DNA of 43,058 nucleotides from Candidatus Omnitrophota bacterium (GTDB lineage Bacteria > Omnitrophota > Gorgyraeia > 2-02-FULL-51-18). Position numbers and translations under genes: made by a program. Shown here piece after piece: positions 7,026 to 38,280 of the stretch. Position 1 is the stretch's first letter. The number at the start of each line of letters is the position of its first letter. Location: contig JAHFFN010000009.1 in NCBI GenBank assembly GCA_023247915.1, positions 1-43,058 of the forward strand. The letters run 5' to 3'. The notes under the pieces were generated by a model. It was not told where the DNA came from and did no database searches. It saw nothing but the letters and a program-made list of their open reading frames with translations.

Positions 7026-7777
7026 AGAATCAAGGCAGAGTTTTTATTTTAATCTTAATAGGGGCGCTTTTATTTTCTAATGCCGCTTTTGCGGAGACAT
7101 TGGCGCCAAAAGATCCCAAAGGGAGTTTGATTAGTTTCTTGAAAAAAGGGAATCACTCCTATAGAAAATTAAAAGATTACAAGGCACTGTTTATAAAAAT
7201 TGAAAGAGAAGAAGGGGTTTTGGGGGCGGAGGAGAGAATTTATCTCAAGTTTGAAAAACCCTGGAAAATTTTCATGAAATGGATGGAGGGGGAGAAAAAG
7301 GGTTTGGAAGTCGCCTATGAGCGCGGCAAACATAAAAATAATCTGATGATTCACAAGCCCGGGCTTCTTTTGGGATTAGGGCCTTCGGTGGTTTACTTGG
7401 ATCAAAATAGCCCGTGGGTGCGCAAGGGCAGTGCCTCCTACGACATTGAAGACGCGGGGATCGGAACTTTCCTTGAGGATTTTACCGCCGCCGTCGCGCA
7501 ATCGTCTCGTGAAAAAAAACTCAAAGTGGAATGTCCGAGCGAATCTTTTTTTGACGTGACCTTTTTGGACTCCAAAGACGATGACATCTATTTCGCGTAT
7601 CGCGTGAAAGTCCTCTTCGATACCCACTCCCATCTCCCTGTCAAAATGGAACTTTTCGATTGGCAAAACCAACCGATGGGTATCTACGAGTACCGCGAAC
7701 TAGAGCTGAATACGGGTCAGAATGAGGCATTTAAGAAAGAAATTAATCGAAATCTGCTGAAGGTGTACAATAGCTGA
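7022..7777 (+). CDS. DUF1571 (LolA-like) exported protein
   Basis: A 251-residue secreted protein with an N-terminal signal peptide (hydrophobic stretch FILILIGALLFSNAAFA, likely cleaved after AFA near residue 24). The mature part matches the DUF1571 pattern: an early LKDYKALFIKIEREEGVLG, a PWKIFMKWMEGEKKGLEV block and a GIGTFLEDF helix. DUF1571 belongs to the LolA/LppX half-barrel superfamily, whose members hold lipid chains or lipoprotein acyl groups in the periplasm. Its start is a GTG overlapping the hydrolase stop. Next to a FabL gene, a glycosyltransferase and an acyl-assembly cluster, it may carry a lipid product across the periplasm; that role is inferred. Confidence 0.8.
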   Translation: MKNQGRVFILILIGALLFSNAAFAETLAPKDPKGSLISFLKKGNHSYRKLKDYKALFIKIEREEGVLGAEERIYLKFEKPWKIFMKWMEGEKKGLEVAYERGKHKNNLMIHKPGLLLGLGPSVVYLDQNSPWVRKGSASYDIEDAGIGTFLEDFTAAVAQSSREKKLKVECPSESFFDVTFLDSKDDDIYFAYRVKVLFDTHSHLPVKMELFDWQNQPMGIYEYRELELNTGQNEAFKKEINRNLLKVYNS

Positions 7778-7778
7778 C

Positions 7779-8519
7779 ATGGAAAAATTTATATTTATTA
7801 GTGGGGGATCCCGGGGAATTGGGAGAGCCATTGTGCTTTCTCAGGCTCAGAAGGGGACGACATTTTTTGTTAATTTTCTTCGGGACGAGGAATCGGCGGA
7901 GAGTTTGAAGGCGGAAGTTGAGAAGAAGGACGGCAAAGTCGTCCTTTTGCCGGGAAATGTCGGCGACCCGGAAGCCATTACCTCCATTTTTGAGGAAATA
8001 AAAAAGCACACGTCCCGCTTGGACGCGTTGATTCACAGCGCGGCCCTCGGGGTGTTCAAGCCGGTGAGCCAGCTTCGCGTGAAGGATTGGGATATTTCAT
8101 TGGATGTAAACGCGAAGGCATTTTTGGTTTTGACGCAGGCGGCTTTGCCTCTCATGAAAGCCAACGGCGGAAAAATCGTCACGATTTCAAGTCTGGGCGC
8201 TCAACGTTTCACACCCAATTATGGCGCGATCGGGATTTCCAAGGCGGCGCTTGAAAATCTGGTGCGTTATCTGGCCGTGGAACTTGCCCAATACAAAATT
8301 CATGTCAACGCGGTTTCGGGCGGGCTTATCGACACCGATTCTCTGACGCATTTTCCGGATATCGCGCTCATGAAAAAAGAATTTTTGTCCCGCACACCCG
8401 GCGGGCGGCTCGGAACGCCGGAAGACATCGCCAAAGTCATTTCTTTTTTATTGTCCCCCGAATCGGATTGGATTTACGGCCAAACCTTGATCGCTGATGG
8501 CGGCTATTCTCTCTTTTAA
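7779..8519 (+). CDS. fabL: FabL-type enoyl-ACP reductase (SDR)
   Basis: Short-chain dehydrogenase (246 aa) with a cofactor motif GGSRGIG near residues 9-15. Instead of the YxxxK of ketoreductases it has Tyr148 and Lys155, six residues apart (NYGAIGISK). That Y-x6-K spacing, with the following AALENLVRYLAVELA and VNAVSGGLIDTDSLTHFP, matches Bacillus FabL (enoyl-ACP reductase III) rather than FabG. The predicted reaction is NAD(P)H reduction of trans-2-enoyl-ACP, the last step of each elongation round. It follows the DUF1571 gene by one base and its 3' end overlaps the glycosyltransferase gene by 23 bases. General annotation would probably call it FabG; the tyrosine-lysine spacing argues against that. 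Confidence 0.82.
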   Translation: MEKFIFISGGSRGIGRAIVLSQAQKGTTFFVNFLRDEESAESLKAEVEKKDGKVVLLPGNVGDPEAITSIFEEIKKHTSRLDALIHSAALGVFKPVSQLRVKDWDISLDVNAKAFLVLTQAALPLMKANGGKIVTISSLGAQRFTPNYGAIGISKAALENLVRYLAVELAQYKIHVNAVSGGLIDTDSLTHFPDIALMKKEFLSRTPGGRLGTPEDIAKVISFLLSPESDWIYGQTLIADGGYSLF

Positions 8520-9675: not shown

Positions 9676-9820
9676 CAAACTAACGGTTAAGGGTAGCGCA
9701 AACTTCAGTTTGCGTAATTCAGGTAGAATTCAAAATACCTAAAAAACACCTTCCGGATTAATGGTTCGGCCAGAAAAACGTAGGTCAGGTTTAAACCTGA
9801 CCTACGTTTTTCTACCTTAT
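9676..9820 (+). repeat. Intergenic repeat family, copy 1
   Basis: About 145 bases of structured non-coding DNA between the glycosyltransferase and acyltransferase genes. It holds an 18-base hairpin (CGCAAAC-TTCA-GTTTGCG, 9697-9714), a small AGGTA...TACCT stem (9721-9740), and a perfect 42-base palindrome at 9772-9813. Closely related copies occur at 19059-19203 (same orientation) and 38138-38280 (opposite orientation). No open reading frame or transposase is associated. Confidence 0.9.
9772..9813. terminator. Perfect 42-bp palindrome, probable bidirectional terminator
   Basis: Each arm is 21 bases, with no mismatch, centred between 9792 and 9793. The core reads GTAGGTCAGGTTT on one side, and the ends are A-rich on the left and T-rich on the right, so RNA from either strand forms a strong stem followed by a U tract. 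It lies between two same-direction transcription units. Confidence 0.75.
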
Positions 9821-19040: not shown

Positions 19041-19058
19041 TTATTTTCCTTCCATTTC

Positions 19059-19203
19059 CAACAAACCCCACGGTTAAGGGTAGCGCAAACTTCAGTTTGC
19101 GTAATTCAGGTGGAATTCAAAATGCCCAAAAGGTTTGAAGGGCTAAGGAGAAGACCCTTCAGAAAACAGTAGGTCAGGTTTAAACCTGACCTACTGTTTT
19201 CTA
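19059..19203 (+). repeat. Intergenic repeat family, copy 2
   Basis: Same element as at 9676-9820, with the same order of parts: CCCACGGTTAAGGGTAGC lead-in, an 18-base hairpin at 19084-19101, a GGTG...TGCCC region, and a perfect 42-base palindrome at 19161-19202. It fills half of the 302-base gap between the adenylating-enzyme gene and uppP. The rest of the gap (19204-19342) holds a short inverted repeat and the uppP promoter, and no gene. Confidence 0.9.
19161..19202. terminator. Perfect 42-bp palindrome, probable bidirectional terminator
   Basis: Arms of 21 bases with no mismatch. Compared with copies at 9772 and 38138, the positions next to the shared GTAGGTCAGGTTT core differ, and each change is matched on the opposite arm. 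Strong stem plus T tract on both strands, right after the last gene of the acyl cluster. Confidence 0.75.
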
Positions 19204-19263
19204 GGAGCTACCTTATAATTTGATCCGAGGTCGGTTTGGGTTGTGTGCAATCCATGTGATTTG

Positions 19264-19279
19264 GCAGGTTGAAACCTGC
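19264..19279. repeat. Short inverted repeat
   Basis: GCAGGTT-GA-AACCTGC, seven-base arms. It looks like a relative of the CAGGTTTAAACCTG core of the larger palindromes, without T tracts. Too small to call a terminator. Confidence 0.5.
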
Positions 19280-19327
19280 ACTACAGTCGGGACGTGGGTG
19301 TGTTAGCAATAGCCCGAGTTTCAAATA

Positions 19328-19342: not shown

Positions 19343-20110
19343 ATGAACCTATTCCATGCCATTATTCTCGGAATTATCGAAGGAATCACGGAATTTCTTC
19401 CTATTTCTTCAACAGGCCATCTAATTCTAACGGCAAAAATTCTTGGTTTAACTCAAACTGAATTTTTAAAGAGCTTTGAGATTGCCATTCAAGTGGGGGC
19501 TATTTTGGCGGTGTTGGTGCTTTATTGGAAAAAGCTCTTACTGGATCTGGAAACTTTTAAACGCGTTTTAGCGGCTTTTGTGCCGACGGCGATTATTGGA
19601 TTTTTACTGCACAAATTGATCAAAAAATTTTTGATCGGAAATATTCATGTGGTTCTTGGCACGTTCTTTGTTGGGGGTGTCATTCTTATTCTTTTTGAGA
19701 AATTCCACAAGGAAGAAAATTCTAAAATCGGAGAAATCCGACAAATCTCTTATGGGCAATCGATTTTAATCGGTCTTTGCCAGTCGCTGGCGGTGATTCC
19801 CGGTGTCTCGCGCTCAGCGGCCACGATTGTCGGGGGACTGGCAATAGGGATTCAAAGAAAAACAATCGTAGAGTTTTCATTTCTGCTGGCAATTCCGACG
19901 CTTGTGGCCGCGACGGTTTTAGATCTCCTTAAAAGTTCAAGCGGATTTTCCTTTGACCAGTGGGAATTAATTTTAGCGGGCGCTCTGGTTTCATTTATCG
20001 TCGCGATTTTTAGTATCCGAGTTTTCTTGGCATTTGTCAGCCACTATAGTTTTAAAACTTTTGGTTGGTACCGCATCGTCATCGCGCTCCTATTCTGGAA
20101 TTTATTTTGA
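19343..20110 (+). CDS. uppP: Undecaprenyl-diphosphatase
   Basis: Integral membrane phosphatase (255 aa) of the UppP/BacA family, which recycles undecaprenyl diphosphate to the monophosphate lipid carrier for cell-wall and glycan synthesis. Both signature regions are present: EGITEFLPISSTGHLIL near residues 13-29 and PGVSRSAATIVGG near residues 152-164. About seven to eight hydrophobic segments are visible. Neighbouring flippase-like and glycan genes fit an envelope role. The stop overlaps the next start as TTGA. Confidence 0.96.
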   Translation: MNLFHAIILGIIEGITEFLPISSTGHLILTAKILGLTQTEFLKSFEIAIQVGAILAVLVLYWKKLLLDLETFKRVLAAFVPTAIIGFLLHKLIKKFLIGNIHVVLGTFFVGGVILILFEKFHKEENSKIGEIRQISYGQSILIGLCQSLAVIPGVSRSAATIVGGLAIGIQRKTIVEFSFLLAIPTLVAATVLDLLKSSSGFSFDQWELILAGALVSFIVAIFSIRVFLAFVSHYSFKTFGWYRIVIALLFWNLF

Positions 20111-21090
20111 AAAAATTTAAAATCTTATTTCTTTTATTGGGTCTGGCGCTCTTGGCGTGGACTGTGCACAAAGTGGGGATCGGAACTCTCACTTCCAATA
20201 TTTTAAACCTGCGTTGGAAGCTTCTGATTCTTTTTTTAGTTTATCCTTTTATTTTTGCGTGCAATACCTGGGGATGGGCGTACGCGTTCCCCACGCCGCT
20301 TCCTAAACACGTCCGATTTAAAGATCTTTATTTCGTCCGGATCATCGGTGAAACATTTAACAACCTGATTCCTTGGGCTGCCTCCTTAGGCGGAGAACCT
20401 ATCAAAGCCCAGCTCCTTAAGAAAAATCATGAAATTCCTCTTTCGGCCAGCTACGCGTCACTTTTGATTGTGCATGTCACCTTTTGGATCTCGCTCAATC
20501 TTTTTGTCATCTTAGGACTTCTTATTACCAGTAAAAGCCGTCCTTTGACGCCGGTCTTGTGGCATAGCATGCTTATTTTTTTGGTGGTCTTGGGTGGAGT
20601 GGTTTTTGTTTTTACGCTGCTTCTTTTTCGAGGTGTTTTTTCTAAAACGCATGGACTGGTTAAAAAAATAGGTTGGATAAAAAAACTTGAGGATAAAACA
20701 GCTCATTACCTCAAGCTAGATGGGGAAATCAAAGACTTCTTTCTCAAAAATCCTAAAAGGCTTTTATTGTCTTCTTTTTTTAATTTCCTCTCCTGGTTTT
20801 TGGGGAGTTTCGAAGTTTATTTTTTCGGAAAGATTTTGGGATTGCCGATTAGTTTTACGGACGCGTGGCTTTTGGAATCATTGATTCAGGTTTTACGTAT
20901 CATCACCTTTTTTGTCCCTGCCTCCATCGGCGCCCAAGAAGGCGGGATTCTTTATATTTTTTCTGAATTTGGTTTCTCAAATCCTCTCAGTATCACCTTC
21001 GCCATCCTCCGTCGCATCCGCGAAATCATCTGGGTCGCCCTTGGCCTTATCCTCTGGGCAATCATGGATCACCCAGTCCCTAAGCAATAA
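20107..21090 (+). CDS. Flippase-like integral membrane protein (LPG synthase TM / UPF0104)
   Basis: Membrane protein (327 aa from TTG 20107) with about seven or eight hydrophobic helices. It carries the family hallmark NLIPWAASLGGEPIKAQLLKK, seen in the lysylphosphatidylglycerol-synthase transmembrane domain and in UPF0104/YbhN-like flippases, plus PASIGAQEGGI near the C-terminus. No catalytic aminoacyl-transferase domain is attached, so lipid transport or an accessory envelope role is more likely than LPG synthesis. The frame is open further upstream (to 20065), but the TTG overlapping the uppP stop gives a normal start just before the first helix and matches the coupling style seen elsewhere here. 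Confidence 0.8.
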   Translation: MKKFKILFLLLGLALLAWTVHKVGIGTLTSNILNLRWKLLILFLVYPFIFACNTWGWAYAFPTPLPKHVRFKDLYFVRIIGETFNNLIPWAASLGGEPIKAQLLKKNHEIPLSASYASLLIVHVTFWISLNLFVILGLLITSKSRPLTPVLWHSMLIFLVVLGGVVFVFTLLLFRGVFSKTHGLVKKIGWIKKLEDKTAHYLKLDGEIKDFFLKNPKRLLLSSFFNFLSWFLGSFEVYFFGKILGLPISFTDAWLLESLIQVLRIITFFVPASIGAQEGGILYIFSEFGFSNPLSITFAILRRIREIIWVALGLILWAIMDHPVPKQ

Positions 21091-21095
21091 TTTAA

Positions 21096-21315
21096 TCCAC
21101 ATACCCCCACAGCTTTTCTTCTTTCTTCCGAACCCGATGCCGTGCCTGTTTCTGTAAGTCGTGGGAACCCCTCGGCGCCACAAAGGCGACATCGTCGTCG
21201 GCGTAGCCGTCGACGAATCGCCTTTGCTCTGCCGTTTCCCACTGACTTACAGAAACAGGCACAAGCGGGCATAGGGTTCGGAAGAAAGAAGAAAAGCTGT
21301 GTAGATCTAGTGGAA
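21096..21315. repeat. Long nested hairpin element
   Basis: One continuous fold-back. Perfect arms 21108-21135 / 21274-21301 (28 bp) are followed inward by ATGCC/GGCAT, a 5-base bulge, perfect arms 21142-21160 / 21244-21262 (19 bp), GTGGGAAC/GTTTCCCAC, then CAAAGGCGA/TCGCCTTTG and a near-palindromic tip around GCGTAG at 21200. Outer bases TCCAC/GTGGA extend it to about 21096-21315. Open frames on both strands here are by-products of the palindrome and look non-genuine. Confidence 0.85.
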
Positions 21316-21319
21316 GGCA

Positions 21320-21448
21320 TTATCGCCCGAGGAGAATGAGGGCTATTGCTTTGGCGTATAGCCCGTAGCGAATATCTTTTAGAAAGTCCTGACCACGGGA
21401 TTTACCGGTGCGAACACATAATGCAAAAGCTACCTCAAAATGTTGCCA
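21320..21448 (-). pseudogene. Possible degenerate ORF fragment inside an inverted repeat
   Basis: On the minus strand an open frame of 42 codons ends at the TAA at 21320-21322 and reads protein-like (VRTGKSRGQDFLKD, then IRYGLYAKAIALILLGR). A single in-frame TGA (21449-21451) separates it from further protein-like residues upstream (NEGHCFGYPTLDCR). It may be a decayed gene or the translated face of a mobile repeat. No family recognised. Low confidence that it was ever a gene. Confidence 0.3.
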
Positions 21449-21490
21449 TCACCTGCAATCAAGCGTAGGGTAGCCAAAGCAATGGCCCTC
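21338..21490. repeat. Large inverted repeat upstream of glmS
   Basis: An 18-base arm at 21338-21355 pairs with 21473-21490 with a single G-U in RNA (GAGGGCTATTGCTTTGGC against GCCAAAGCAATGGCCCTC). About 117 bases lie between the arms. Together with 21096-21315 it fills most of the 477-base gene-free stretch 21091-21567. Confidence 0.75.
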
Positions 21491-21534
21491 GTTCGACGAC
21501 GGCGTGGGACGTTTTTCGCTTTCCACCCAGTATT

Positions 21535-21543
21535 TGATACAAT
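21535..21543 (+). promoter_or_regulatory. Extended -10 promoter for glmS
   Basis: TGATACAAT, extended -10 type, 24 bases before the glmS ATG. The short leader has a ribosome-binding site AAGGA at 21557-21561. There is no room for, and no sign of, a glmS ribozyme. Confidence 0.5.
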
Positions 21544-21567
21544 AAGCCCTTATTATAAGGAAAGCTT

Positions 21568-23472
21568 ATGTGCGGTATTTTTGGGTATACAGGCGGTAAA
21601 CAGGCTCAAAATCTTGTGATCCAGGGGTTAAAGCACCTGGAGTATCGAGGGTATGATTCTTCGGGCGTCGCGATTCAGAACGGCGCCAAAGCCATTCATT
21701 TTGAAAAGACTCAAGGGAAAATCCGGAACCTTGAGGAAATTTTAAAAAAGCATCCTTTGCAGGGGAAAACCGCGATCGGCCACACGCGTTGGGCGACGCA
21801 CGGCACTCCCAATGATTTAAATGCCCATCCTCATCTCGACAATCACAGCCAAATCGCCGTGGTGCACAACGGGATTATTGAAAACTATTTTGATTTGAAA
21901 CAAAATTTAAAAAAACACGGCGCGCGCTTTCGTTCCGAAACCGACACCGAAGTGATTGTCCATCTGGTGGCCAAATACTACAAAGGAAACCTGGAAAACG
22001 CGGTGCGCCGGGCGCTGAAAGACATTCGCGGTACCTACGCGATCGCCGTGATTTGCTCGAAAGAACCCGGCAAGATTGTGGCGGCCAGACTCGACAGCCC
22101 GCTTGTCGTCGGCATCGGCCGCGAGGAAAATTTCTTGGCTAGTGACGTTTCCGCCCTTTTGGATCACACCGACCGCGTGATTTACGTGGAAAACGGGGAA
22201 GTAATTACGCTTTCCGACCGTGCCGTCAGTATCACCGACTTGTCCGGAAAACCGGTGAAGCGCGTTCCCGTCAAGATCCAGTGGACGATTACCCAAGCCA
22301 AAAAGGGTGGCTACCCGCATTTCATGATCAAAGAAATTTTTGAACAACCTGAGATTTTGACCGCCATTTTGCGCGAGCGCATTCAAAAATCAAAAATTAT
22401 ATTTGAGGAATTAAAAATTTCAGCCGCGGAATTAAAATCCGTGAAACGCATCGTTATCATCGCCTGTGGCACCGCGTATCACGCGGGGCTTGTTGGAAAA
22501 TACATTCTCGAAGAATTCACCAACATCCCCGTGTGGGTGGACACTTCCTCGGAGTTTCGTTACCGCGATCCCAAGGTAGGAAAAGGGGATCTAGTCATCG
22601 CGATTTCACAGAGCGGTGAAACGGCCGATACATTGGCCGGGATTCGCGAAGCCAAAATGAAGAAAGCGTTGACCTTGACGATTTGCAATGTGCTGGGGAG
22701 CACGATGTCCCGCGAAGCCAAGGGTGTCATTTATACTCACGCCGGTCCCGAAATCGCGGTCGCTTCCACCAAGGCCTACACCGCACAGCTGGCAACACTC
22801 TATCTTTTGGGGCTTTATTTGGGGAATTTCTTAAAAACACTGCCCGAGAAGCGTTTTCACGCGTTGGTCAAAGAATTATTCCGCGTTCCTTCCATGATGC
22901 AGAAAGTGCTCGACCAGTATAAAAAAGAAGAGAAGGATTGGGCTGCCAAAGCGCATGATTTCAACAAACGTTATCACGCGCAGCTTGAAAAATATTATAA
23001 AGCTGACCCGGAAAAGAGAAAGCGTTCTCCAAACGGTTTCTTCCTTTATCTGGGGCGCGGCATCAATTATCCCAACGCGTTGGAAGGTGCTTTGAAGCTA
23101 AAAGAAATTTCTTATATTCCCGCCGAAGGTTATCCCGCGGGGGAAATGAAACACGGCCCCATCGCGCTCATCGATGAAAATCCGTGGGTGATTTGTCTGG
23201 CGCCTCAATCCAAGACCTATGAAAAAATGATTTCAAATATTCAGGAAATCAAGGCTCGCGGCGGCATGGTGATTCCGGTCGTGACCGAAGGCGACAAGGA
23301 AATTTACAAGCTCAAGCCTTTTTACACCATTGAGATTCCGAAAGTCTCCGAAATCTTGTCTCCGCTAGTCGCGGTATTGCCACTACAACTTATCGCCTAT
23401 TGTGTCGCCAAAGAATTCGGTGAGGACATTGATCAGCCTCGCAATCTCGCCAAGTCCGTGACGGTGGAATGA
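21568..23472 (+). CDS. glmS: Glutamine--fructose-6-phosphate aminotransferase
   Basis: Makes glucosamine 6-phosphate from fructose 6-phosphate and glutamine, the entry to peptidoglycan and LPS amino sugars. Cys2 (MCGIFGYTGG) is the glutaminase nucleophile after Met removal, with the HTRWATHG and HNGIIENYFDL blocks. Two SIS isomerase domains follow (ACGTAYHAG, ISQSGETADTLAG, and EGYPAGEMKHGPIAL). At 634 aa it is about 25 longer than the E. coli enzyme; the extra residues are a Lys/Tyr-rich stretch between the SIS domains (around residues 455-490). The C-terminus ends in LAKSVTVE as usual. The stop overlaps rsmI by four bases. Confidence 0.96.
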   Translation: MCGIFGYTGGKQAQNLVIQGLKHLEYRGYDSSGVAIQNGAKAIHFEKTQGKIRNLEEILKKHPLQGKTAIGHTRWATHGTPNDLNAHPHLDNHSQIAVVHNGIIENYFDLKQNLKKHGARFRSETDTEVIVHLVAKYYKGNLENAVRRALKDIRGTYAIAVICSKEPGKIVAARLDSPLVVGIGREENFLASDVSALLDHTDRVIYVENGEVITLSDRAVSITDLSGKPVKRVPVKIQWTITQAKKGGYPHFMIKEIFEQPEILTAILRERIQKSKIIFEELKISAAELKSVKRIVIIACGTAYHAGLVGKYILEEFTNIPVWVDTSSEFRYRDPKVGKGDLVIAISQSGETADTLAGIREAKMKKALTLTICNVLGSTMSREAKGVIYTHAGPEIAVASTKAYTAQLATLYLLGLYLGNFLKTLPEKRFHALVKELFRVPSMMQKVLDQYKKEEKDWAAKAHDFNKRYHAQLEKYYKADPEKRKRSPNGFFLYLGRGINYPNALEGALKLKEISYIPAEGYPAGEMKHGPIALIDENPWVICLAPQSKTYEKMISNIQEIKARGGMVIPVVTEGDKEIYKLKPFYTIEIPKVSEILSPLVAVLPLQLIAYCVAKEFGEDIDQPRNLAKSVTVE

Positions 23473-38039: not shown

Positions 38040-38280
38040 AACAAACGAACCGCATGAAAGTAGTGCAAACTTTAGTTTGCTAAATCACACTGATTGCACA
38101 TCCTCCCGAATCGGCTACATTCTGTAGAGCCTCAAGTAGAAAAAAGTAGGTCAGGTTTAAACCTGACCTACTTTTTTCTGGACGATACACCCCTCTGAAA
38201 GGTGTTTTTTAGGTATTTTGAATTCTACCTGAATTACGCAAACTAAAGTTTGCGCTACCCTTAACCGTGGGATTTGTTGT
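38040..38280 (-). repeat. Intergenic repeat family, copy 3 (inverted, composite)
   Basis: On the minus strand, 38280-38138 repeats the element of 9676 and 19059: lead-in CCACGGTTAAGGGTAGC, hairpin at 38238-38255, AGGTA...TACCT stem, then the 42-base palindrome 38138-38179. To the left, 38040-38085 carries a decayed copy of the lead-in in plus orientation (hairpin GCAAACTTTAGTTTGC at 38065-38080). So two oppositely oriented lead-ins flank one palindrome. The 292-base gap between the helicase gene and pyrE holds nothing else but the pyrE promoter. Confidence 0.87.
38138..38179. terminator. Perfect 42-bp palindrome, probable bidirectional terminator
   Basis: Third copy, arms of 21 bases with no mismatch. 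The end of each arm is A/T-rich (AGAAAAAAG on the left), giving a T tract after the stem on either strand. It separates the helicase unit from pyrE. Confidence 0.75.

Follow-up and report, generated by a model that had tools for sequence, protein, structure and literature searches.

Probable MITE-like fold-back elements with TA targets between a flippase-like gene and glmS in an Omnitrophota genome

Small hairpin repeats of several kinds have been described in bacteria. The TA-flanked MITEs Correia/NEMIS, ERIC/IRU and RUP are about 100-200 bp long, gene-less, intergenic and dispersed with 5'-TA-3' ends, RUP being thought to be mobilised by IS630-Spn1 (PMC2229807). YPAL (RU-2) of Yersinia, ∼168 bp, is a long internal palindrome which is not AT-rich, is intergenic and is co-expressed with the genes upstream of it; both occupied and empty sites are known, terminal TA is absent and duplications of 3-26 bp are made (PMC2229807). 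The BOX, RUP and SPRITE repeats of Streptococcus pneumoniae are small, cluster and insert into one another (PMC10969869), and REP/REPIN/BIME elements are clustered intergenic hairpins with compensatory arm changes (PMC3116915).

We have compared with these systems a segment of a 43,058-nt stretch of DNA (the window), contig C78 of a 1.65-Mb Omnitrophota MAG that is 89.6% complete and broken at repeats. The segment consists, we consider probable, of two consecutive non-autonomous, MITE-like fold-back elements with TA targets, termed f1 and f2. The f1 group resembles Correia/NEMIS, ERIC/IRU and RUP in size, absence of a gene, an inverted repeat folding into a long stem, TA ends and dispersal. 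It differs from them in that no partner IS was found, almost the whole length of ∼200 bp takes part in the fold, the arms vary by copy with no fixed terminal repeat, at least six families are stacked in tandem, and placement is at stop codons with a TA|G start. By description, the group is likened to YPAL in its long internal palindrome, intergenic location and filled and empty sites but set apart from it by the terminal TA and the 3-26 bp duplications of YPAL, and likened to BOX, RUP and SPRITE as clustering small hairpin repeats. It shares intergenic hairpins, clusters and compensatory arm changes with REP/REPIN/BIME; however, it lacks GTAG at its foot, is much longer and is not adjacent to RAYT genes, and the REP-like family of this genome is a different, 42-nt palindrome. 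The tendency to lie exactly at stop codons is an uncommon twist on a known bacterial kind of mini-transposon.

Structure of the two fold-backs upstream of glmS

The fold-backs lie downstream of bacA and a flippase-like gene (20065-21090, forward strand; PF03706, LPG_synthase_TM), whose TAA stop codon occupies 21088-21090, and are followed by glmS (GATase and SIS domains; 21568-23472, forward strand). The closest relatives of the encoded GlmS, at about 71-78%, are found in Candidatus Omnitrophota MAGs. Here (20065-21568) the flippase gene and glmS are read in one direction, whereas in relatives the two diverge, and the fold-back junction is therefore also a rearrangement point. Hairpin density at glmS loci did not set relatives apart from other phyla, in which scattered high scores occur too.

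The whole f1 hairpin spans 21108-21301 on the forward strand, as judged from pairing, fold and similarity to other copies. The preliminary description reported perfect arms of 28 and 19 bases, a single fold-back with its tip at about 21202 and no genuine gene, all of which were confirmed. The outer arms, 21108-21141 and 21268-21301, have 33 of their 34 positions paired, with no mismatch in the first 28, and the inner arm GTGCCTGTTTCTGTAAGTC at 21142-21160, almost invariant among copies, pairs with 21244-21262 at all 19. The central part (21161-21243) comprises GTGGGAA/TTCCCAC, CGGCG/TGCCG and AAAGGCGA/TCGCCTTT stems and closes near 21202; its symmetry is imperfect, with conserved asymmetric bulges such as an unpaired AAGCG. 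RNA folding of 21080-21330 gave one nested hairpin of -151.6 kcal/mol, compared with -69.1 ± 5.0 kcal/mol for 200 dinucleotide shuffles of the same interval, none of which folded as well (z = -16.4). In a stem scan f1 scores 140, whereas no score of 65 was reached when 297 kb of this genome were shuffled. No ORF longer than 83 aa lies mainly inside f1, an Rfam scan of the window gave no match at the gathering score, and searches of f1 for a sigma-70 promoter and for an intrinsic terminator (GC-rich stem then U-tract) returned no match, with no U-tract present. The window f1 is no terminator, gene or known RNA family. Its limits probably lie at about 21102-21108 and 21301-21309, since similarity in other copies starts with TA|GCTCC..CACAGC. 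The far end is not clean: in the window copy one side shows CATACCCC|CACAGC, the opposite side GTGTAGATCTAG.

A second fold-back, f2, which the preliminary description overlooked, occupies 21326-21505 on the forward strand, begins 25-32 nt downstream of f1 and ends 62 nt before glmS. Its 22-nt arms (21334-21355 and 21473-21494) are 91% paired (z = -3.8).

Copies, related families and empty sites

A DNA search detected six f1 copies in the genome, all at unrelated sites: that of the window, C58:6297-6503, C3:21811-22006, C67:50022-50216, C67:3654-3816 and C23:1-98, the last cut by the contig end. The five other copies are 84-94% identical to that of the window, a divergence of 6-16% which does not support the earlier suggestion of a recent insertion. 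Five f2 copies are present, the four others being 88-93% identical. Inverted chimeras are known in metagenome assemblies, and a chimeric inverted join, named earlier as the refuting outcome, or a chance palindrome could in principle yield such a segment. Occurrence in six unrelated contexts with differing arms and conserved asymmetric bulges, the z-score of -16.4, and related copies of two sister families (f3 and f5) in an independent MAG, G002, make this explanation extremely improbable.

The genome carries at least six fold-back families of about 130-230 bp each, often side by side. By following the flanks of known elements we reached f3 (contigs C58, C54, C52 and C7), f4 (C54, C40, C11 and C74), f5 (C58, C67 and C74), f6 (C3, C75 twice and C53), n7 (C67) and n8 (C30). 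Tandem stacks comprise f1+f2, f1+f5 (twice), f1+f6, f1-arm+f3+f2, f3+f4 and f2+f4. Outer arms are common to or exchanged between families, the CACAGCTTTTC arm occurring in f1 and around f2 (loci L012 and L013) and the AGCAGCAGGCATCAAGCTTTGCC arm in f3 plus one f1 copy. In a search of other genomes, as the preliminary description had proposed, f1 itself was not found in 58 related genomes, where a single 24-nt match was the only hit. Sister families are present in relatives, n8 in G001, G003, G008, G009 and G012 and the f5 core in G002, G003, G004 and G012. The inner arm pattern had no match in GTDB genomes or IMG/VR, BLAST of f1 against phages and plasmids gave none, and no report of such repeats in Omnitrophota was found in the literature. 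No family is kept across relatives at a given site. In G002, f3 and f5 stand in tandem at 88 and 95% identity, whereas GlmS is only 77% identical, which suggests that this pair may have arrived by transfer or contamination.

Comparison of gene order with relatives, genes being named by sequence resemblance, indicates how the repeats arose. Between an RNase D-like and a gatC-like gene on C3, 441 bp containing f1+f6 are present here, compared with about 15-30 bp in G004 and G006, and between a kinase-like and a peroxiredoxin-like gene on C58 the composite f1-arm/f3/f2 occupies 491 bp, compared with about 100 bp in G007. Because the orthologous pair that flanks f1+f6 here almost abuts in G004 and G006, the fold-back repeats are insertions, the f1 empty site being set by gene order, not base by base. 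For n8, contig C93 of G012 (L189) carries an insertion of ∼300 bp and contig C15 of the same MAG (L220) does not, with nearly identical flanks; this empty site is near base level, blurred by local changes, and at a further n8 site G011 has no element. The C93 copy sits between a TATAAT-like box and a gene start codon, the C15 allele being without n8. G001 carries two other fold-backs at the RNase D-like/gatC-like junction, and other hairpins occupy the kinase-like/peroxiredoxin-like junction in G001 and G003; the same gene junctions are thus hit more than once. The long G001 fold-backs at these two junctions (L272 and L274) are unrelated to the elements found here.

The earlier choice between recent insertion, functional RNA and fold-back mobile element is narrowed by these observations: the mobile element is well supported by the six copies and by empty sites, including those of the sister family n8, and the recency is not. 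The elements are short, without coding capacity (ORFs ≤83 aa) and repeated (six f1 and five f2 copies); the whole element is an inverted repeat, so that terminal inverted repeats are present; and relatives have empty sites, at the level of gene order for f1+f6 and f1-arm/f3/f2 and near base level for n8. The element works like a TA-target MITE. Membership of that class is not claimed outright because the f1 duplication is not clean and no enzyme was found.

TA targets and placement at stop codons

The terminus TA|GCTCC..CAC is common to f1 and reversed f2 copies, and n8 ends read TA|CTGA...TCAG|TA in several copies. TA was observed on both sides of all four f5 copies, of two f2 and two f6 copies, and of at least four of the ten n8 copies. 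Copies of f1 and f2 begin TA|G, usually at a stop codon. In two tests framed after the pattern was seen, a stop codon is no more than 6 nt away for 9 of the 11 clusters whose neighbours on both sides are known, compared with 2.8 expected from random placement in residual intergenic space (P = 3.5e-7), and the stop abutted by an element is TAG in 8 of 9 cases, compared with a background of 32 of 185 (17%; P = 6e-6). The window copy, by contrast, follows a TAA stop at a distance of 17 nt. That the TA of the stop codon is the insertion target, with TAG regenerated by the G at the start of the element, is supported, not proven. Under the proposed mechanism, insertion would occur at a TA dinucleotide, very often that of a stop codon, TA ending up on both sides, and, as the element starts with G, the stop would stay TAG, so that insertion would cost the gene nothing. 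Transcripts of the upstream gene probably include the hairpin, which may thereby affect where mRNAs end or how far transcription continues into glmS; this would be a by-product or a secondary use.

Positive selection for a role at the 3' end would likewise be consistent with stop-codon placement and with the different fold-backs that relatives have at the same two junctions. The corresponding alternative is that the repeats are functional mRNA 3'-end elements, host terminators, insulators or RNA stabilisers that were spread by recombination or a mobile ancestor and are kept by selection. The strong stop-codon association, an orientation relative to the upstream gene that is identical in five of six f1 copies, the presence in relatives of other fold-backs at both junctions and the conserved pairing speak for it. 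Conversely, there is no U-tract, terminator match or Rfam family, the copy C67b lies between divergent genes and follows no stop codon, no family is conserved at a given site across relatives, and pairing evolves almost without G-U intermediates. A functional RNA, one of the options raised earlier, is thus weakened and judged unlikely, though it keeps its place as a rival to the MITE-like reading.

Arm covariation and candidate mobilising enzymes

The arms of the fold-backs co-vary. Among five f1 copies 13 of 79 pairs do so, the outer arm having 13 both-sided changes, no one-sided change and no G-T cells. Among ten n8 copies both-sided change affects 45 of 95 pairs, departures being both-sided in 112 cases versus one-sided in 15, with a G-U share of 3.7%. 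Extreme cases are n7, described below, and four f5-core copies in G003, whose outer arms are for the most part peculiar to one copy but pair almost completely. Because paired changes occur almost without G-T steps, and RNA selection would tolerate G-U, the pattern points to arm-to-arm copying at the DNA level rather than selection on RNA. Template switching has been proposed as a process by which hairpins are formed and preserved (PMC8794818), and template-switch mutations associated with quasipalindromes have been documented in E. coli (PMC7202029). The complementarity of the arms may accordingly be maintained by quasipalindrome correction, in which DNA synthesis switches template from one arm to the other, and not mainly by RNA selection. 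The n7 element (7769-7995 of locus L157, on contig C67 of this genome) is a 174-nt fold-back in which the 3' end of a tRNA-His gene forms the outer arm and an inverted duplicate of that end forms the opposite one. An origin of all arms as inverted copies of host flank is supported only for n7 at tRNA-His and is contradicted by the n8 empty site; arms are not generally captured from the flank, because both n8 arms arrived with the insert in G012.

No transposase with ends matching the fold-backs was found in this genome; among DDE families the search covered DDE_3 (IS630), which is absent from the 89.6% complete MAG. A trans-acting enzyme, either of DDE type with a TA target or a single-strand HUH/Y1 enzyme, would recognise TA|GCTCC..CAC..GC and the hairpin. 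Two Y1_Tnp genes are present, on C44 (RAYT-like) and C61, and they admit the alternative that the repeats are REPIN/BIME-like elements mobilised by RAYT, a Y1 HUH transposase, via a single-stranded hairpin. Large hairpins near stop codons and the mosaic tandem layout also recall REP elements. Compensatory changes are, moreover, reported for REPINs (PMC3116915). However, the C44 gene is bracketed by the GTAGGTCAGG palindrome, a family separate from f1, the 42-nt terminal repeats of the C61 gene are unrelated, no GTAG tetranucleotide occurs at the f1 foot, and insertion of the IS200/IS605 type would not be expected to leave TA on either side; this origin is accordingly rated as quite unlikely. 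The Y1 transposases were rejected as f1 mobilisers on the ground that their flanks carry other repeats.

At C61:4086-7418 (L121) terminal inverted repeats of 42 nt, 79% complementary and unrelated to f1, enclose the Y1 transposase gene in the manner of TIRtrons (PMC3733652). Perfect 42-nt palindromes AGAAAAnnGTAGGTCAGGTTTAAACCTGACCTACnnTTTTCT occur at 9772-9813, 19161-19202 and 38138-38179 of the window; their 26-nt core, of which the genome has 11 occurrences, lies on either side of the C44 Y1 transposase, a REP/RAYT-like (REPtron) arrangement. Larger composite hairpins at 19054-19310 and 38060-38258 each enclose a 42-nt palindrome, the latter with GTAG...CTAC ends and GCAAACT...AGTTTGC arms.

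Beyond the MITE-like reading, the f1 group may, tentatively, represent a class of fold-back that rewrites its own arms, with a conserved core, arms renewed per copy as inverted duplicates that are nearly exact (as in the G003 copies of the f5 core and in n7), insertion at the TA within stop codons and a not-yet-known enzyme, a possibility to which we give limited credence. Small hairpin repeats affect both the ends of mRNAs and the plasticity of genomes, and a question they pose is how long, well-paired arms arise and persist. Several families with co-varying arms occur here in one Omnitrophota family, with empty sites in relatives, and this combination of variable, co-varying arms and empty sites makes DNA-level arm copying and stop-codon targeting testable by comparative genomics.
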